From: a virus
Virus record (IMG/VR): IMGVR_UViG_3300027851_000075
Location: 1-36,466 of that record
Strand: one strand, 5' to 3'
Length of the DNA: 36,466 bases
Part shown: piece after piece, positions 26 through 35,032 of the stretch
How positions within the stretch are numbered: the first letter of the stretch is position 1
Layout of the letters: every line of letters begins with the position of its first letter
Notes under the pieces: model-generated
The model's input: only the letters and a program-made list of their open reading frames with translations
What the model was told of the DNA's origin: nothing
The model's database searches: none
Made by a program: the position numbers and the translations under genes

Positions 26-904
26 ATGACATTTACCCATTATGCATTTGCTGATGAATCGAGTTACACAACTGACAACAACTACGGTGCAATATCAATA
101 CTAAATTTTAGAAAGGAAATTAAAACTCCGTTGGAAGATGCTATTTTGCCCCTTCTGGCCGATATTCCAAATGAATACAAATGGAGCAACTTTCAAAATC
201 CATGCTATTTAAATGTATCGAAAAATGTGTTTGACATCCTGTTTCAATACGCTGGTCAAGGTGATCTACGAATTGACACAATAATCTGGGATAACAAAGA
301 CGCTGCCCACAAGAGGAATTTAACAAACACAGGAGAAAAGTTAAGCATTCTGTATTACATACGATTGCGTGACATGCTTGCTAATCGTTGGGGTTCAAAC
401 ACGAGATGGATGATTCTTGTAGATGAACAACGACAAATAAATTGGGAAGAGCTGAAACAATACCTGCAATATTATAGTATGGTGAAGAATCAAAAAACCT
501 TGCTGGGTATGGATTACGATCTGGCATGGCATCGAGAACATAGATGTTTGTTTTCTATTGAAGATTTAACCCCTGTTAAATCATGTGACAACCATTTTAT
601 ACAAATTGCTGACTTGTTTGCGGGTATGGCAGCATATTCTCATAATTACTCAGACCAAATATTAACTTGGTTAGATTCGGATTCACGAAGGCATTATGAA
701 AATAATATTGCACAACCAGCGTTCGAATTTCTTGAGGAATTGAAATTAGATCCCAAATACATCCATCGCAACAAATTTATTAAATATGTATACTTGAAAT
801 GCAAAAAAAGAAAGTATGGCGTAAGCATCAGAAACAAAAAAGGATTACACACTTTCCAACCCAAACACCCGTTTAATTTTTTTTATGCAGGTCCAGAGAA
901 ATAA
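26..904 (+). CDS. DUF3800 domain protein
   Basis: A 292-residue protein that opens with a hydrophobic strand and an acidic pair (YAFADESS, about residues 6-13) and has a late QIADLFAGMAAYS motif near residue 195. Both are typical of the DUF3800 family, which is thought to have an RNase H-like fold and is common in phages and defence-rich regions; its biochemical role is not established. The ATG follows a GAAGGGGG ribosome binding site. It is on the opposite strand to the phage late genes and is noticeably more AT-rich than them, so it is either a cargo gene or host DNA at the left edge. No partner gene is visible inside the window. Confidence 0.7.
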   Translation: MTFTHYAFADESSYTTDNNYGAISILNFRKEIKTPLEDAILPLLADIPNEYKWSNFQNPCYLNVSKNVFDILFQYAGQGDLRIDTIIWDNKDAAHKRNLTNTGEKLSILYYIRLRDMLANRWGSNTRWMILVDEQRQINWEELKQYLQYYSMVKNQKTLLGMDYDLAWHREHRCLFSIEDLTPVKSCDNHFIQIADLFAGMAAYSHNYSDQILTWLDSDSRRHYENNIAQPAFEFLEELKLDPKYIHRNKFIKYVYLKCKKRKYGVSIRNKKGLHTFQPKHPFNFFYAGPEK

Positions 905-5947: not shown

Positions 5948-5973
5948 TGCTGCATTCCTTTCAACTTCAAGTT

Positions 5974-6011
5974 AAAAAAACAAGCCGTGAAGACATTTCT
6001 ATCTTCACGGC
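5974..6011 (-). terminator. Intrinsic terminator of leader copy 1
   Basis: Stem GCCGTGAAGA/TCTTCACGGC with loop TAGAAATG, then TTGTTTTTTT on the minus strand, placed 27 nt before the scaffold start codon. Confidence 0.85.
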
Positions 6012-6104
6012 CGCTCATCTTCCGTCTTGCCCCGCGCTCTTCGCCGGGCTGCTGCTGGATTCAGGAGAATCGTAGATTCTCCCCTTTGAAAGGGCTATGC
6101 CCTT
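5974..6104 (-). ncRNA. Late-operon leader RNA, copy 1 (terminated, upstream of scaffold gene)
   Basis: Predicted transcript of about 130 nt from the promoter at 6111-6143. In order it holds: hairpin A (GAAAGGGC/GCCCTTTC, triloop ATA); hairpin B (GGAGAATC/GATTCTCC); hairpin C (GCCCGGCG/CGCGGGGC, one mismatch); a conserved unpaired stretch around CGGAAGATGAGCGG; and an intrinsic terminator. The same RNA heads all four late operons (24351, 28426 and 34834 are the other copies). Hairpin A is GAAAGAGC/GCTCTTTC in copy 2, so pairing is kept while sequence changes. A terminator before the genes implies that readthrough must be licensed, possibly by put-like antitermination. That role is inference. 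Confidence 0.75.
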
Positions 6105-6110
6105 TCATCC

Positions 6111-6143
6111 AGTATACCAAATTCCGCAATACTTTAAAAGCCC
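6111..6143 (-). promoter_or_regulatory. Late promoter P2, copy 1
   Basis: Extended -10 TGGTATACT on the minus strand. At the -35 position is a palindromic CTTTTAAAG inside a GGGCTTTTAAAG box present in all four copies, instead of TTGACA. The box looks like a binding site for a phage activator or an alternative sigma factor; this is inference. Confidence 0.7.
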
Positions 6144-6152
6144 CTATTTTCC

Positions 6153-6440
6153 TTACCCCGCCATCTCCAGCAGCGGGATCAAATCTTGATACAACCCCAC
6201 CGCGCTCATCGTCTGCAATTCCCCCGTCATCCGCAGCTCTTCTTCCGTCGACCGCAGCACCAGCACCGTATCCAGCAGCGCTTCCTGCTCCGCATCCAGC
6301 CCTTCCCGCAGCTTCTCCGTCAACTTCTCATTCAACAACTCCACCATCCACAGCGGGATTTTCCTGCCCTGGCTCGCTTCCCACGCCAGCGTACTGCCAA
6401 CTGCAACTACTTCTTCTTGTCGTACTTCATTGGTAATCAT
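6153..6440 (-). CDS. Cassette protein, copy 1 (95 aa, unknown; candidate late regulator)
   Basis: A 95-residue, mostly helical acidic protein with no recognised family. Two paralogues lie at 24534-24821 (nearly identical) and 28586-28888 (diverged, longer by five). Conserved blocks are AWEASQGRKIPLWMVE and ELRMTGELQTMSAVGLYQDL. The start chosen is the ATG nine bases after GGAG; an upstream in-frame ATG (6455) would put this Shine-Dalgarno inside the gene. The GGAG belongs to GGAGACACCC, which is complementary to the terminator loop of the RNA just upstream. Its position between that RNA and the late promoter suggests a regulator of late leaders, but nothing in the sequence proves it. Confidence 0.75.
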   Translation of the reverse strand: MITNEVRQEEVVAVGSTLAWEASQGRKIPLWMVELLNEKLTEKLREGLDAEQEALLDTVLVLRSTEEELRMTGELQTMSAVGLYQDLIPLLEMAG

Positions 6441-6466
6441 TTTGGGTGTCTCCATTTTTTTGCCCG

Positions 6467-6676
6467 CAAAAACAAAAAACCGCAACGCAGTCAACCGCCT
6501 GGAGACACCCATCTCGTGAGCAAATTTTCTGCGCTGCGGATCTTTGTCCACAAGCTTTAAATATATGTTAAATTAGTCGGTTTATGGCTATTCAATTAGG
6601 GCGGTTTGGTGCTTACTTTCATCACACCTGGTGTTTTAAAGTACAAAATTGCTCAAACTTAGAGGTGGGTGTCTCT
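6467..6676 (-). ncRNA. Cassette RNA (P1 RNA), copy 1
   Basis: Predicted approximately 210-nt RNA. Its predicted +1 (6676) begins AGAGACACCC. It ends in an intrinsic terminator: CCGCAGCGCAG (6529-6539) pairs with CTGCGTTGCGG (6480-6490), then TTTTTTGTTTTT. The terminator loop holds GAGATGGGTGTCTCC (6501-6515), complementary both to the RNA's 5' end (6662-6675) and to GGAGACACCC at the Shine-Dalgarno of the 95-residue gene (6444-6453). A second helix, TGAGCAA/TTGCTCA, extends the 5'-to-loop pairing. The RNA can therefore hide the ribosome site in trans or by readthrough, with its own 5' end competing. Confidence 0.7.
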
Positions 6677-6682
6677 GCCCAT

Positions 6683-6688
6683 AGTATA
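6683..6688 (-). promoter_or_regulatory. Promoter P1, copy 1
   Basis: Extended -10 TGCTATACT on the minus strand, seven bases before AGAGAC; no good -35. Identical in all three cassette copies. Confidence 0.65.
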
Positions 6689-6720
6689 GCACAATTGGTA
6701 TACAAATCCAACGCCTGTTT

Positions 6721-6756
6721 AAAATCAACCGCCCAGCTAATGTAGCTGAGCGGTTG
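6721..6756 (-). terminator. Terminator of anti-tRNA RNA, locus 1
   Basis: 14-bp stem with a CAT loop and one G-T pair, followed by ATTTT on the minus strand. Confidence 0.75.
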
Positions 6757-6821
6757 AGTTCATTCCACTCCCCAAAGGACTTGAAATGAACTATCGTCAA
6801 TTCTGACTGTTCTTGCGAAAC
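6721..6821 (-). ncRNA. Anti-tRNA small RNA, locus 1
   Basis: Predicted approximately 100-nt RNA. Its predicted 5' end (6808-6822) is a perfect 15-nt complement of the anticodon arm of the adjacent tRNA (TGTTCTTGCGAAACA in the tRNA). A small hairpin (GTCA GAAT TGAC), a longer GTTCATT/AATGAAC stem and a terminator follow (CAACCGCTCAGCTA/TAGCTGGGCGGTTG, then ATTTT). It has its own promoter at 6828-6856. Locus 2 (29197-29301) repeats this plan with a different tRNA. Confidence 0.65.
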
Positions 6822-6827
6822 ATATAT

Positions 6828-6856
6828 AGTATAACAAATTTTGCATATTGATTCAA
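6828..6856 (-). promoter_or_regulatory. Promoter of anti-tRNA RNA, locus 1
   Basis: TTGAAT (6856-6851), 17-bp spacer, TATACT (6833-6828); predicted +1 at 6821, one base inside the antisense segment. Confidence 0.75.
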
Positions 6857-6863
6857 TATGGAG

Positions 6864-6936
6864 CGCCCCCGGCCAGAATTGAACTGACATATTTTGTTTC
6901 GCAAGAACAACGCTTTGTCCATTAAGCTACAGGGGC
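6864..6936 (-). tRNA. tRNA with anticodon TGC (Ala codon GCA), atypical
   Basis: 73-nt cloverleaf: acceptor GCCCCTG/CGGGGGC, D-stem GCTT/AAGC with loop AATGGACA, anticodon stem TTGTT/AACAA with loop CTTGCGA (anticodon 6901-6903), T-stem GTCAG/CTGGC with loop TTCAATT. No CCA is encoded and the discriminator is G. An alanine tRNA normally carries G3-U70 and A73; here 3-70 is C-G. The body (A20, AATGGA D-loop) is more arginine-like, so charging with alanine is doubtful. Confidence 0.85.
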
Positions 6937-7013
6937 ACTTAGTAATAATTCTAGCACGCATGAATGCAAACCTTTGTTGCGCCTTTATGAAATTACGGTT
7001 TTTTAAGATGCCT

Positions 7014-13629: not shown

Positions 13630-14547
13630 TTAAACCATCTCAACCGCATCAGCCAGGTCCTGAAACCCGGGACGCACATAAATCTTGGTAGTTTCAATCG
13701 AACTGTGTCCCAGCAACATGGCCACTTTCTCAATCGAAACCCCCTTATCCACCATTCGTTTACCAAAACTGTGGCGCAGCCGGTGCGGCGTAATATCTTC
13801 CAGGCAGCCCGCCTGCTGTCCCAACGCTTTGATCCGTTTCTGGATCCAGCGCTCAGAGATAGAGAACAATTGCCCACCCATGGCTTCCTGCAGCCACGGA
13901 TTCACCAGGCGCCGTGCCTCTTTACCCAGCGGGACCATGCGTTCCTTCTCGCCTTTGCCCGCATGGATCAACGCATAACCCGATCGCTCGCGAATCACCA
14001 CATCACCGCGGTGGAGATCGACAACTTCAAACTCACGCAAACCGGCATAAGCCATCAAACCAACCATCGCCTGATCTCTCAGAGCATTCATGCGCTGCAT
14101 CGGGCTGCGGGCCGCGTTCACATTCCGCTCTACCTGGCGCATCAATCGGGCAAAATCCAGGTTATCCATCCACCGCGGTTGATTGTCTTGCTGATCCATA
14201 GCCTGAATACCGTCAAACACATCCACCGAAACGAAACCACCCTTCTGACAGAACTCCGCCAATTTCCGCATCGTGCTCATACGCCGGTTCCAGGTAGCAG
14301 CAGCCACACGGCACACATCCACCTGGTAACGCCGGAACGCGTGCATATCCCAGTTGGTCAACTTCTCTGGCGTAAATTCTTCCCCGTTTTCTGCCAGGAA
14401 CCAATCTAAAAACACCGACAGATCCTGCTGAATGGCCTTGTGGGTGTTCGATGAATACCCCATCAGGAATTGACCAACAAAAATTGTCTGCCAGTCTGAA
14501 TCAGATTGGGCAGACACCGCCGCAACTACATTCTTGTTCGATTTCAT
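13630..14547 (-). CDS. Tyrosine recombinase (integrase 1, XerC/D-like)
   Basis: 305 residues: an N-terminal SAM-like arm (about 20-105), then the catalytic domain with Arg in YAGLREFEVV (near 170), HRLRH (255-259), His in LGHSS (281) and the nucleophile Tyr in TKIYV (290). All catalytic residues are present. It cuts and rejoins DNA at att sites or resolves dimers. The start follows AAGGAGC. It faces away from integrase 2, and a tRNA-like sequence lies 177 bp upstream. It lacks the long N-terminal arm-binding domain of lambda Int, so it could also be a resolvase. Confidence 0.9.
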   Translation of the reverse strand: MKSNKNVVAAVSAQSDSDWQTIFVGQFLMGYSSNTHKAIQQDLSVFLDWFLAENGEEFTPEKLTNWDMHAFRRYQVDVCRVAAATWNRRMSTMRKLAEFCQKGGFVSVDVFDGIQAMDQQDNQPRWMDNLDFARLMRQVERNVNAARSPMQRMNALRDQAMVGLMAYAGLREFEVVDLHRGDVVIRERSGYALIHAGKGEKERMVPLGKEARRLVNPWLQEAMGGQLFSISERWIQKRIKALGQQAGCLEDITPHRLRHSFGKRMVDKGVSIEKVAMLLGHSSIETTKIYVRPGFQDLADAVEMV

Positions 14548-16616: not shown

Positions 16617-16794
16617 GTAAGAGGGTTAAGGTAAGTTTTTGCCAGGAACTGCATGGGGTGTAAGAGGTCGAAGGTTCGAATCCTTTCGCCCCGACCATAA
16701 GCCTCTTACAGAGGCAAATCTCCACGGTAAGAGGTCTCTGGTTCACTTTTTGGGCAGTTTTTCAACTCTCAAAAACAACCGGAGACCTCTTACC
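16617..16794. other. Attachment-site region with GTAAGAGG repeats
   Basis: GTAAGAGG lies at 16617, 16660 and 16727, and its complement at 16702 and 16786. The outer pair extends to an 18-bp inverted repeat with one mismatch (16726-16743/16777-16794). The core overlaps the tRNA-Pro fragment. Integrase 2 starts 77 bp to the right. Arms on both sides suggest an intact attP rather than attL or attR. Confidence 0.6.
16651..16697 (+). tRNA. 3' fragment of a tRNA-Pro(GGG), att core
   Basis: Begins at the anticodon loop (ATGGGGT), then the T-arm GAAGG TTCGAAT CCTTT, acceptor strand CGCCCCG, A73 and encoded CCA. No matching 5' half precedes it. This is the part of a tRNA gene that phages carry to restore the gene on integration. 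Confidence 0.75.
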
Positions 16795-16870: not shown

Positions 16871-17806
16871 ATGCAACTGTCTACAGCCATCAAAACCTAT
16901 GTTCTTTACCTTGCATCCCTCGGCCGCTCTCCCAGTACCATCAGTTACTACCGCGGCTGCATGGAGCGCCTGCAGGCAGCCATCGGTGACCTAGCGGTTG
17001 ATGAGATCACCCACACGCACCTGGTCAATTTCATGGCGGAACAAAACTTCCAGCAAAAATCCCAGGCGACCATGCAGGCCTATTGGAAAACCTTCAAATC
17101 TTTTTTCACCTGGTGCGAAGAGGAGCTGAATTTAAAGAACCGCCCTGACGCCCGCATCAAATGCCCCCAGGTGCCGCCGCCCGAAGTCATTCCCTTCTCG
17201 CACGACGATATCAAAGCCCTGATGCGCGCTGCAGCCCTGACCAACACCTGTCGCACCCGGGGCCGCAAGTCGTATAAAATGCGCCGCCCCACCGCCGCCC
17301 GGGATCTATCGCTGCTCATGCTCATGCTGGATACCGGATTGCGCGTGTCAGAAGTGGCCCGCATCAAGATTGCCGATGTGGATCTGTTTGAATCAGGTTC
17401 CATCCAGGTGCGCGCTTACCGTTCCGGCCAGAAGTCTCGCCCGCGCACCGTTTACATGTCCAAACGCACCGCCTACCAGATCCACCTGTATCTCAACGAA
17501 CGCCACAAACCACACCCCACCGAAGCATTGTTCCTGAGCGCACATCGCAATCCCATGGACAAAGATTCCATCGATGGCGTCATTGCCAACCTGGGAAAAC
17601 GCGCCAACATCAACAAGACCCACCCGCACCGGTTCAGGCATACCTTCGCCATTGAATTTTTGCGCAATGGCGGTGACGTGTATACCCTGCAGCGCATGCT
17701 GGGTCACTCTACCCTCGATATGGTCAAGCGCTACCTGAATATTTCCGAAGTAGATGTCGAAAACGCCCACCGCCTGGCCTCCCCGGTCGATAACTGGCGG
17801 TTGTAA
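16871..17806 (+). CDS. int: Tyrosine recombinase (integrase 2)
   Basis: 311 residues: an N-terminal SAM-like domain (YVLYLASLGRSPSTISYYRG) and a catalytic domain with Arg in DTGLRVSEV (near 155), HRFRH (253-257), His in LGHST (279) and Tyr in VKRYLN (288). All catalytic residues are intact. The ATG follows CAAGGAGG. It lies next to a tRNA 3' fragment flanked by repeats, the usual place of the enzyme that integrates the phage. It is transcribed against the tail operon and ends in a shared terminator. Confidence 0.92.
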   Translation: MQLSTAIKTYVLYLASLGRSPSTISYYRGCMERLQAAIGDLAVDEITHTHLVNFMAEQNFQQKSQATMQAYWKTFKSFFTWCEEELNLKNRPDARIKCPQVPPPEVIPFSHDDIKALMRAAALTNTCRTRGRKSYKMRRPTAARDLSLLMLMLDTGLRVSEVARIKIADVDLFESGSIQVRAYRSGQKSRPRTVYMSKRTAYQIHLYLNERHKPHPTEALFLSAHRNPMDKDSIDGVIANLGKRANINKTHPHRFRHTFAIEFLRNGGDVYTLQRMLGHSTLDMVKRYLNISEVDVENAHRLASPVDNWRL

Positions 17807-24333: not shown

Positions 24334-24350
24334 GCGTTGCTCCTGTTTAA

Positions 24351-24394
24351 ACAAAAAAAAGCCGTGGACTATGCAAATAATGCATAGTCCACGG
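24351..24394 (-). terminator. Intrinsic terminator of leader copy 2
   Basis: Long stem GCCGTGGACTATGCA/TGCATAGTCCACGGC, then eight T on the minus strand. The inner arms share no sequence with copy 1, yet pair fully. Confidence 0.85.
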
Positions 24395-24489
24395 CCGCTC
24401 ATCTTCCGTCTTTGCCCCGCGCTCTTCGCCGGGCTGCTGCTGGGTTCAGGAGAACCTACGACTCTCCCCTTTGAAAGAGCGTAGCTCTT
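24351..24489 (-). ncRNA. Late-operon leader RNA, copy 2 (upstream of tape measure)
   Basis: Same plan as copy 1, about 139 nt. Hairpin A is GAAAGAGC/GCTCTTTC, a compensated change from copy 1; hairpin B is GGAGAGTC/GGTTCTCC with wobble pairs. Loops and the CGGAAGATGAGCGG stretch are conserved. Confidence 0.75.
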
Positions 24490-24495
24490 TCATCC

Positions 24496-24528
24496 AGTAT
24501 ACCAAATTGCACCCAACTTTAAAAGCCC
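24496..24528 (-). promoter_or_regulatory. Late promoter P2, copy 2
   Basis: TGGTATACT with the GGGCTTTTAAAG box at -35. Confidence 0.7.
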
Positions 24529-24533
24529 TTATT

Positions 24534-24821
24534 TTACCCCGCCATCTCCAGCAGCGGGATCAAATCTTGATACAACCCCACCGCGCTCATCGTCTGCAAT
24601 TCCCCCGTCATCCGCAGCTCTTCTTCCGTCGACCGCAGCACCAGCACCGTATCCAGCAGCGCTTCCTGCTCCGCGTCCAGCCCCTCCCGCAGCTTCTCCG
24701 TCAACTTCTCATTCAACAACTCCACCATCCACAGCGGGATTTTCCTGCCCTGGCTCGCTTCCCACGCCAGTGTACTGCCAACTGAAACTACTTCTTCTTG
24801 TCGTACTTCATTGGTATTCAT
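24534..24821 (-). CDS. Cassette protein, copy 2 (95 aa, unknown)
   Basis: Differs from copy 1 at only two residues (MN for MI at the start and S for A in VVSVGS). The ATG lies nine bases after GGAG, which is part of GGAGACGGGCAT (24823-24834), complementary to this copy's own RNA loop. It sits between the tail chaperones and the tape measure, interrupting a gene pair that is normally adjacent in siphoviruses. Confidence 0.75.
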   Translation of the reverse strand: MNTNEVRQEEVVSVGSTLAWEASQGRKIPLWMVELLNEKLTEKLREGLDAEQEALLDTVLVLRSTEEELRMTGELQTMSAVGLYQDLIPLLEMAG

Positions 24822-24848
24822 TATGCCCGTCTCCATTTCATGCCCGTA

Positions 24849-25057
24849 AACCAAAAAACCACAGCGCAGTCAACCACCTGGAGACGGGCATCTCGTGAGT
24901 AGCTTTTCTGCGCTGCGGATCTTTGTCCACAAGCATTTGAATATTCAGATATGTTAATTTAGTCGGTTTATGGATATAGGCGGTTGGGTGCTTACTTTCA
25001 ATTGCACCTGGTATTTTAAAGTACAAAGTTACTCACATTGCGAGATTGCCCGTCTCT
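24849..25057 (-). ncRNA. Cassette RNA (P1 RNA), copy 2
   Basis: Begins AGAGACGGGC. Loop element GAGATGCCCGTCTCC (24880-24894) pairs with the 5' end (25042-25056) and with the Shine-Dalgarno region (24823-24834). Terminator stem CCGCAGCGCAG/CTGCGCTGTGG keeps pairing with a G-T at a different position from copy 1. The second helix is GTGAGTA/TACTCAC, compensated against copy 1. Confidence 0.7.
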
Positions 25058-25063
25058 GCCCAT

Positions 25064-25069
25064 AGTATA
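25064..25069 (-). promoter_or_regulatory. Promoter P1, copy 2
   Basis: Extended -10 TGCTATACT; predicted +1 at 25057. Confidence 0.65.
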
Positions 25070-25095
25070 GCACAATTTGTAGACAAATAGTACGT

Positions 25096-28408: not shown

Positions 28409-28425
28409 GCTTTCTCCTGCTGGTT

Positions 28426-28464
28426 AAAAACAAACAAGCCGTGAAGACATTTCTATCTTCACGG
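28426..28464 (-). terminator. Intrinsic terminator of leader copy 3
   Basis: Same stem as copy 1 (GCCGTGAAGA/TCTTCACGGC), then TTGTTTGTTTTT on the minus strand. Confidence 0.82.
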
Positions 28465-28556
28465 CCGCTCATCTTCCGTTGTGCCCCGCGCTCTCCGCCG
28501 GGCTGCTTGGTTCAGGAGAATCGTAGATTCTCCCCTTTGAAAGGGCTATGCCCTTT
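28426..28556 (-). ncRNA. Late-operon leader RNA, copy 3 (upstream of connectors)
   Basis: Same order as copy 1. The C hairpin loop is GGAGAG instead of GAAGAG and the linker before CGGAAG differs by two bases, while stems are intact. Confidence 0.75.
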
Positions 28557-28562
28557 CAATCC

Positions 28563-28595
28563 ATTGTACCAAATTGCGCCCAACTTTAAAAGCCC
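28563..28595 (-). promoter_or_regulatory. Late promoter P2, copy 3
   Basis: TGGTACAAT with the GGGCTTTTAAAG box, which overlaps the stop codon of the cassette gene. Confidence 0.7.
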
Positions 28596-28888
28596 TCATT
28601 TTCCCCCGTCATCGCCAGTGCCGGGATCAAATCCTGGTACAACCCCACCGCGCTCATCGTCTGTAACTCCCCCGTCATCCGCAGTTCGTCTCCCATCGAC
28701 CGTACCACCAGCAGCGAATCCAGCAGTGCTTCCTGCTCTGCGCTCAGCCCGGCCCGCAGCTTTTCCGTCAACCGGTCATCCAATTCTTCCACCATCCACA
28801 ACGGGATCTTCCTGCCCTGGCTCGCTTCCCACGCCAGGTCACTGCCAACTGCTTCTACTTCTTCTTGCCGTATTTCATTGGTATTCAT
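28586..28888 (-). CDS. Cassette protein, copy 3 (100 aa, unknown)
   Basis: Diverged paralogue: changes cluster in the middle helix (EELDDRLTEKLRAGLSAEQ) and it is five residues longer (ENEGF) because the stop lies inside the P2 box. The core AWEASQGRKIPLWMVE and ELQTMSAVGLYQDLIP are unchanged. The ATG lies nine bases after GGAG in GGAGACCTCC (28892-28901). Confidence 0.75.
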   Translation of the reverse strand: MNTNEIRQEEVEAVGSDLAWEASQGRKIPLWMVEELDDRLTEKLRAGLSAEQEALLDSLLVVRSMGDELRMTGELQTMSAVGLYQDLIPALAMTGENEGF

Positions 28889-28913
28889 TTTGGAGGTCTC
28901 CATATTCAGCCCG

Positions 28914-29123
28914 CAAAAACAAAAAACCGCAACGCAGTCAACCGCCTGGAGACCTCCATCTCGTGAGCAAATTTTCTGCGCTGCGGATCTTTGTCCACAA
29001 GCTTTAAATATATGTTAAATTAGTCGGTTTATGGCTATTCAATTGGGCGGTTTGGTGCTTACTTTCATTCACACCTGGTGTTTTAAAGTACAAAATTGCT
29101 CAAACTTAGAGGTGGAGGTCTCT
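28914..29123 (-). ncRNA. Cassette RNA (P1 RNA), copy 3
   Basis: Begins AGAGACCTCC. Loop element GAGATGGAGGTCTCC (28948-28962), 5' partner 29109-29122, Shine-Dalgarno partner 28892-28901. It is nearly the same sequence as copy 1 apart from these three words, which all change from the ACACCC type to the ACCTCC type. Terminator stem CCGCAGCGCAG/CTGCGTTGCGG, then TTTTTTGTTTTT. Confidence 0.72.
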
Positions 29124-29129
29124 GCCCAT

Positions 29130-29135
29130 AGTATA
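29130..29135 (-). promoter_or_regulatory. Promoter P1, copy 3
   Basis: Extended -10 TGCTATACT; predicted +1 at 29123. Confidence 0.65.
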
Positions 29136-29196
29136 GCACAATTGGTAGACAAATCCAACAGATTCCTACAAAAAAACGTCCAGTTGCCTGACCGTT

Positions 29197-29301
29197 TAAA
29201 AGGCGCAGCGCCCAAATGCGGGGGCTATTTGAGCGCTGGCGGGGCGGGAGGAAATATTAATTTCAACCCATACCGGTTCTACCGGCAATTTTACTCGCAG
29301 T
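29197..29301 (-). ncRNA. Anti-tRNA small RNA, locus 2
   Basis: Predicted approximately 105-nt RNA beginning exactly at the antisense segment: ACTGCGAGTAAAAT (29301-29288) is complementary to the adjacent tRNA's anticodon arm, and after one extra T the match goes on (GCC). A CCGGT AGA ACCGG hairpin, a GAAAT/ATTTC hairpin and a terminator-like stem (AGCGCTCAAAT/ATTTGGGCGCT) follow, then GCGCCTTTT. Order and length mirror locus 1 although the sequences differ. Confidence 0.65.
29198..29237 (-). terminator. Terminator-like hairpin of anti-tRNA RNA, locus 2
   Basis: 11-bp stem with a nine-base loop; the T-tract is short and offset by five bases, so efficiency is uncertain. Confidence 0.55.
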
Positions 29302-29307
29302 GATTCC

Positions 29308-29336
29308 ATTATACACATTTTACGAACTATTTTCAA
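29308..29336 (-). promoter_or_regulatory. Promoter of anti-tRNA RNA, locus 2
   Basis: TTGAAA (29336-29331), 17-bp spacer, TATAAT (29313-29308); predicted +1 at 29301. A near-consensus sigma70 promoter directly 3' of the tRNA. Confidence 0.85.
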
Positions 29337-29343
29337 GAAATAG

Positions 29344-29416
29344 CTCCCCCGACCGGACTCGAACCGATATTTTTTTTACTGCGAGTAAAATGCCATGTCC
29401 ATTAGGCGACGGGGGA
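29344..29416 (-). tRNA. tRNA with anticodon CGC (Ala codon GCG), atypical
   Basis: 73-nt cloverleaf: acceptor TCCCCCG/CGGGGGA, D-arm GCCT AATGGACA TGGC (three good pairs), anticodon stem TTTTA/TAAAA with loop CTCGCAG (anticodon 29383-29381), T-arm ATCGG TTCGAGT CCGGT. No CCA; discriminator G; pair 3-70 is C-G. As with the tRNA at 6864, the alanine anticodon sits on a body without alanine identity. Confidence 0.88.
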
Positions 29417-29460
29417 ACTACTTAATAATTTTATCATACTCACTAAACACAATATACCGT

Positions 29461-34809: not shown

Positions 34810-34833
34810 TCACTTCCTTTCATTGGATTAAAA

Positions 34834-34876
34834 CAAAAAAAGCCGCAGTCCATACGTTCATCGTATGGACCACGGC
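34834..34876 (-). terminator. Intrinsic terminator of leader copy 4
   Basis: Stem GCCG..GTCCATACG/CGTATGGAC..CGGC with a two-base internal mismatch, then seven T on the minus strand. The stem sequence is unlike copies 1-3. Confidence 0.82.
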
Positions 34877-34971
34877 CGCTCATCTTCCGTCTTTGCCCCG
34901 CGCTCACCGCCGGGCTGCTGCTAGTTTCAGGAGTATCTGGGATTCTCCCCTTTGAAAGGGCTATGCCCTTT
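34834..34971 (-). ncRNA. Late-operon leader RNA, copy 4 (upstream of holin)
   Basis: Same promoter, hairpin order and terminator as copies 1-3, but without the cassette RNA and the 95-residue gene. Hairpin B is weaker. It heads operon A (holin to portal). Confidence 0.75.
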
Positions 34972-34977
34972 CAATCC

Positions 34978-35010
34978 AGTATACCAAATTGCGTGGAACT
35001 TTAAAAGCCC
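34978..35010 (-). promoter_or_regulatory. Late promoter P2, copy 4
   Basis: TGGTATACT with the GGGCTTTTAAAG box at -35, as in the other copies. Confidence 0.7.
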
Positions 35011-35032
35011 CCTGGGTTAGGTGTGTTGCAGA

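Follow-up and report, generated by a model that had tools for sequence, protein, structure and literature searches.

Why would a phage place, directly behind a tRNA gene, a promoter whose predicted transcript begins with the complement of the anticodon arm of that same tRNA? The question is raised twice by the 36-kb virus record IMGVR_UViG_3300027851_000075, whose whole stretch of 36,466 nucleotides was analyzed (the window) and which carries two such cassettes, both on the minus strand. As read from the sequence, the two odd tRNA genes, each with a promoter and an antisense small RNA, look like a dedicated off-switch for a tRNA.

Both cassettes follow a common plan, in which an extended -10 promoter, the tRNA, an inverted repeat, a sigma-70 promoter (P2), the segment complementary to the anticodon arm (A'), hairpins and a terminator succeed one another. 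Cassette 1 contains the following parts.

6948-6956, minus strand: promoter of the tRNA, extended -10 element TGCTAGAAT, from the sequence and the alignment of the two cassettes
6864-6936, minus strand: tRNA, anticodon TGC, no encoded CCA (ARAGORN; Rfam RF00005, 61 bits)
6844-6860, minus strand: inverted repeat CATATTGAATCAATATG (CATATTG-AAT-CAATATG) directly 3' of the tRNA, from the sequence
6828-6856, minus strand: P2, TTGAAT-17-TATACT, 9 of 12 consensus positions (-35 at 6856-6851, -10 at 6833-6828)
6721-6822, minus strand: predicted small RNA 1, about 102 nt, with an intrinsic terminator at its end (fold z = -7.2)
6808-6822, minus strand: A', perfectly complementary over 15 nt to anticodon-arm positions 28-42; located at the 5' end of the small RNA
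6796-6807, minus strand: T', small hairpin with a complement of the T-arm (9 nt, 11 with G-U)

Cassette 2 is built in the same way.

29428-29436, minus strand: promoter of the tRNA, extended -10 element TGATAAAAT, from the sequence and the cassette alignment
29344-29416, minus strand: tRNA, anticodon CGC (ARAGORN; Rfam RF00005, 52 bits)
29327-29343, minus strand: inverted repeat CTATTT-CTTGA-AAATAG directly 3' of the tRNA, from the sequence
29308-29336, minus strand: P2, TTGAAA-17-TATAAT, 11 of 12 consensus positions
29170-29301, minus strand: predicted small RNA 2, about 132 nt, with the terminator ACGTTTTTTT at its end (fold z = -3.2)
29288-29301, minus strand: A', perfectly complementary over 14 nt to anticodon-arm positions 26-39
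29271-29287, minus strand: T', hairpin with a weaker complement of the T-arm

The distance from the -10 element to tRNA base 1 is 11 nt in cassette 1, and cassette 2 is alike in the alignment. The preliminary description of this DNA had placed a TTGAAT-17-TATACT promoter right after the cassette 1 tRNA, its +1 at 6821, one base inside a 15-nt complement of the anticodon arm, and small hairpins with an intrinsic terminator behind it. All these elements were recovered: P2 occupies 6856-6828 of the minus strand, the predicted +1 falls 7 nt past its -10 and one base inside the complement (6822-6808), a further hairpin lies between T' and the terminator, and the terminator stem (6757-6743/6739-6725) is followed by TTTT. 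The claim that a second locus repeats the plan with another tRNA also held, the predicted +1 there (29301) being the first base of the 14-nt complement and a hairpin again separating T' from the terminator. Both predicted small RNAs carry a terminator and fold better than shuffled sequences. The inverted repeats at 6844-6860 and 29327-29343 differ in sequence and each overlaps the -35 of P2; they may serve as an RNA hairpin or as an operator.

Complementarity of this length was compared with chance expectation by shuffling the downstream DNA and scoring its complement to the tRNA in 20,000 trials. The observed length of A' was reached in none of the 20,000 shuffles at locus 1 and in one of 20,000 at locus 2. 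The downstream complements of all other tRNAs in the fetched loci reached 10 nt at most. When both strands of 1.79 Mb were scanned for 12-nt inverted repeats with the second arm beginning at a promoter +1, the two cassettes, two unrelated non-tRNA sites and no others were returned. A chance origin of the complementarity was rejected on the strength of the shuffles and the scan. T' forms nine pairs with the T-arm in cassette 1, or eleven with G-U (p 0.002-0.004 in shuffles), and six in cassette 2 (p 0.09), or ten with G-U (p 0.025), which is suggestive of a second contact with the tRNA. Since the order of A' and T' does not fit one continuous duplex, the contacts would be two separate ones.

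The two phage tRNAs are identical at 54 of 74 positions. Their anticodon arms differ at 6 of the 12 shared positions (29, 31, 34, 37, 38 and 39 within 28-39), and all six differences are matched by the A' of the own tRNA, a match between two paralogues that fits either covariation or renewed copying of the arm, in inverted form, within each cassette. An arm that changes without its downstream copy had been named beforehand as counter-evidence; between these paralogues the copy follows at 6 of 6 positions. The stem pairs 1-72, 29-41, 31-39, 49-65 and 52-62 changed jointly between the paralogues, so both genes have been kept as tRNAs.

The predicted duplex of A' with the cognate tRNA reaches -22.9 kcal/mol in cassette 1 and -19.9 kcal/mol in cassette 2, and with the other phage tRNA it falls to -6.9 and -7.0 kcal/mol. 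Cofolding of the full RNAs gained 7.5 and 6.6 kcal/mol for the cognate pairs and 0 and 4.3 kcal/mol for the swapped pairs. Host-type tRNAs, drawn from one related genome, which may not be that of the host, and from other loci, offered A' at most 7 contiguous pairs, which disfavors them as targets; the best of them was Arg-GCG (-16.4 and -14.3 kcal/mol, accessibility ignored). By these predictions, each antisense is specific for the tRNA of its cassette. Altogether, the paralogous cassettes, the placement of +1, the compensated divergence and the cognate specificity lend good support to the putative dedicated antisense RNA against the anticodon arm that the preliminary description had proposed.

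Relatives of the cassettes were sought widely. Two more contigs from the same sample are identical, one of them overlapping locus 2 in the same orientation. Viral contigs scanned by tRNA pattern, repeat pattern, 95-aa ORF, terminase, portal, major capsid and late-leader yielded these same-sample contigs or cassette-free relatives only, one of the scans having sampled other phage arginine tRNAs rather than the cassette tRNA. No cassette was found in genomes of Anaerolineae and Chloroflexota, in searches two of which ran without a positive control, and Blast against phages and plasmids gave no useful match. As no other genome with a cassette was found, the covariation is one between two paralogues.

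What kind of tRNA would be provided with such an antisense? The anticodons TGC (cassette 1) and CGC (cassette 2) read alanine codons, and the 'Ala' label of the cassette 1 tRNA, the one treated in the preliminary description, derives solely from its anticodon. Under identity rules established mainly in E. coli, AlaRS needs G3:U70/A73, and ArgRS reads A20 and C35. Both phage tRNAs have G73, A20 and the D-loop AAUGGACA; G3:U70 and A73, present in tRNA-Ala of the related host genome, are missing from both, so neither has the make-up of a functional tRNA-Ala. Neither do they conform to a functional tRNA-Arg: A20 and the Arg-type D-loop are there, but position 35 is G, not C. Arginine anticodons were carried by 47 of 48 distinct Anaerolineae tRNAs with the same D-loop/T-loop signature, the nearest host-type tRNA to that of cassette 1 was Arg-GCG (59 of 74 positions), and the D-arm of cassette 2 is identical to that of a phage tRNA-Arg(TCT). 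This arginine-type body and the anti-T-arm segment were both absent from the preliminary description and were found here. Charging by AlaRS is unlikely because G3:U70/A73 is lacking and the body is of the arginine type; AlaRS should reject both tRNAs, and ArgRS would find A20 but not C35, the loss of which may prevent arginine charging. From identity elements known mainly from E. coli we infer that both are misreading, potentially toxic or uncharged tRNAs, not ordinary alanine tRNAs.

The surroundings of the cassettes were inspected as well. Portal relatives (42-46% identity) sit in Anaerolineae genomes, and the host appears to be an uncultured bacterium of the Chloroflexota, class Anaerolineae. 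Four further features of the window are listed next.

16650-16696: likely attP, 47 bp, 91% identity with Ornatilinea apprima tRNA-Pro(GGG), 3' half
16871-17806: tyrosine integrase, beside the likely attP
13630-14547: another tyrosine recombinase, in addition to the integrase
26-904, plus strand: DUF3800 protein, for which PADLOC gave the weak candidate PDC-M04A (30.6 bits)

The phage is probably temperate, as an attP-like site adjoins the tyrosine integrase. The likely attP is flanked by CCTCTTAC-type arm repeats, and the cassettes themselves are located at late-operon boundaries. In tRNA-dependent lysogeny a phage tRNA replaces the isotype disrupted at attB (PMC10865867). A temperate phage with a tyrosine integrase and its own tRNA under its own promoter recalls that arrangement, but the likely attP matches the tRNA-Pro 3' half over 47 bp and the cassette tRNAs are of another kind. 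The cassettes were set aside both as attachment sites and as replacements of a tRNA, given that the likely attP is at 16650-16696.

On balance we consider it probable that the predicted small RNA base-pairs with the anticodon arm of the adjacent tRNA and thereby silences it. The DNA itself displays the anatomy, complementarity, specificity and compensated divergence; that the RNAs are transcribed and pair in the cell, and that the tRNA is harmful and is silenced, we infer from these features. One promoter of each cassette would yield a stable phage tRNA and the other a terminated small RNA, and the 5' end of the latter would pair in trans with the anticodon arm of its own tRNA. The first contact in cassette 1 would be a loop-loop kiss of 7 nt, CUUGCGA against UCGCAAG, and that in cassette 2 would be made by the unpaired 5' tail of the small RNA. 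The A/U-rich anticodon stems would open next to yield a duplex of 14-15 bp, in which the anticodon would be hidden or destroyed, e.g., through RNase III, and the T-arm contact may assist the pairing. The small RNA would in this way be a dedicated off-switch for the tRNA. If charged with arginine, the tRNA would misread GCA/GCG; if uncharged, it would be a non-productive competitor, and in either case it would be worth keeping silent, e.g., in the lysogen. GCG and GCA together account for 505 of the 7,393 codons in 20 phage genes, a share at which misreading would carry a high cost. More tentatively, the cassettes could form an all-RNA toxin-antitoxin or lysogeny-control module with the tRNA as the toxin and the small RNA, opening the anticodon arm, as the antitoxin. 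An Arg body joined to an Ala anticodon would then lead to missense or dead-end decoding, and the phage would carry two orthogonal copies of the module.

The small RNA might instead work as a timing switch, with useful tRNAs that read GCA/GCG during lytic growth and are restrained by the antisense in the lysogen. GCG (309 of 771) and GCA (196 of 771) are the two commonest alanine codons in the 20 phage genes, and the late-operon boundaries and the probably temperate phage suit such a role. We nevertheless regard it as unlikely, as both tRNAs combine arginine-type bodies with the lack of G3:U70/A73 and should not be charged by AlaRS.

The tRNA could also act as a sponge or be sensed, so that the 5' end of the small RNA, which acts on another target, is released or bound according to how much of the tRNA there is and whether it is cleaved or charged. 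The 5' end is the usual seed position of small RNAs, and the antisense at the extreme 5' end and the loop-loop complementarity speak for this quite improbable scheme. However, no further site in the phage matches the 15-mer or the 14-mer with up to 3 mismatches, and the strong terminators show no obvious antiterminator fold as an alternative.

A defense-related role is very doubtful. Here host anticodon nucleases would be met with decoy or replacement tRNAs, the small RNA protecting the arm or restraining the decoy. Phage tRNAs do evade anticodon nucleases or retrons, resisting or satisfying tRNA-targeting defenses (PMC10264068, PMC11555353), and the cassettes share with them phage tRNA genes with unusual anticodon loops. 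Against this, the word 'antisense' is absent from PMC10264068, which describes no antisense RNA, and the cassette tRNAs differ in pairing arginine-type bodies with alanine anticodons. PADLOC, run on ten proteins of the 36,466-nt stretch, indicated no clear defense or repair system, its only matches being weak ones to a primase-like protein and the DUF3800 protein.

It is highly improbable that A' works only in cis, as an alternative fold or processing site in a read-through precursor from the tRNA promoter. In both cassettes A' lies on the same strand about 40 nt downstream of the tRNA with no terminator between, but a good promoter puts its +1 at A' in each of them, which a cis element would not need. 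An inverted repeat acting at the DNA level, as an invertible promoter or an attachment site of a tyrosine recombinase, is hardly credible: P2 lies between the repeats and two tyrosine recombinases are encoded, but half of the shared positions differ between the repeats of locus 1 and those of locus 2, unlike in sites of one recombinase, an inversion would split the tRNA, the overlapping contig keeps the orientation of locus 2, and the likely attP is elsewhere, beside the integrase.

Silencing by a dedicated antisense, the reading we prefer, has parallels in known systems. In ColE1 (RNAI/RNAII) and R1 (CopA/CopT) antisense control proceeds by loop-loop kissing. The likeness extends to a small structured RNA encoded at the target locus, complementary loops, and fast kissing followed by a duplex. 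Those antisense RNAs overlap the target gene on the opposite strand and act on a primer or an mRNA; in the cassettes a tRNA would be the target, and the small RNA has a separate gene downstream of it in the same orientation. T-box riboswitches read the tRNA anticodon with a 5' RNA region, a trait that the small RNAs would share. The cassettes differ in the 14-15 nt perfect complement of the whole arm and in having no visible antiterminator, and no Rfam T-box match was obtained at E up to 1. The type I toxin-antitoxin system hok/sok has an RNA antitoxin. The cassettes likewise encode a predicted complementary antisense RNA with its own promoter, and the logic of a stable toxic RNA and an unstable antisense RNA is a possible further likeness. 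They differ in having no toxin peptide, the partner being a tRNA (61 and 52 bits, Rfam) and itself the proposed toxin. CreTA, an all-RNA system whose CreT acts on tRNAs (PMC8501985), is marked by Cascade and by a CreA guide flanked by CRISPR repeats; in the phage no repeat pair flanks the small RNAs, and no Cascade is present. In their predicted action the cassettes resemble antisense-RNA control and possibly an RNA toxin-antitoxin pair, but they fit no named type in full.

No description of a tRNA-antisense cassette was found in the open-access literature. The known targets of antisense RNAs are mRNAs and replication primers; if our reading is true, tRNAs would join the targets of dedicated antisense genes, and should the tRNA prove harmful, the toxin of a toxin-antitoxin system would here be a tRNA. 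The cassettes are also relevant to the question of why phages carry tRNAs, as neither of theirs looks like a codon supplier. The two orthogonal cassettes permit simple partner swaps.

Two other families of repeats were noticed in the window. A repeat of about 700 bp is present in three copies on the minus strand (5958-6712, 24390-25088 and 28410-29159; 83-89% identical) and contains a promoter, a 5' leader of about 240 nt and an ORF of about 95 aa with no Pfam match. In its leader a copy-specific triplet co-varies at GAGACnnnC, its complement GnnnGTCTCC and GGAGACnnnC, the last of which covers the ribosome-binding site just upstream of the ATG, with a terminator-like hairpin between the elements. 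Such a leader resembles a sequestration switch insulated between copies. A promoter with a structured leader of about 140 nt occurs in four copies, also on the minus strand (5958-6144, 24347-24528, 28410-28595 and 34828-35011), with the motifs GAAAGGGCATAGCCCTTTC..AGCAGCAGCCCGGCG..GAGCGCGGGGC and no Rfam match. Each copy precedes a late operon and closes with a terminator hairpin that varies in sequence from copy to copy; possibly it is a put/qut-like antitermination leader.
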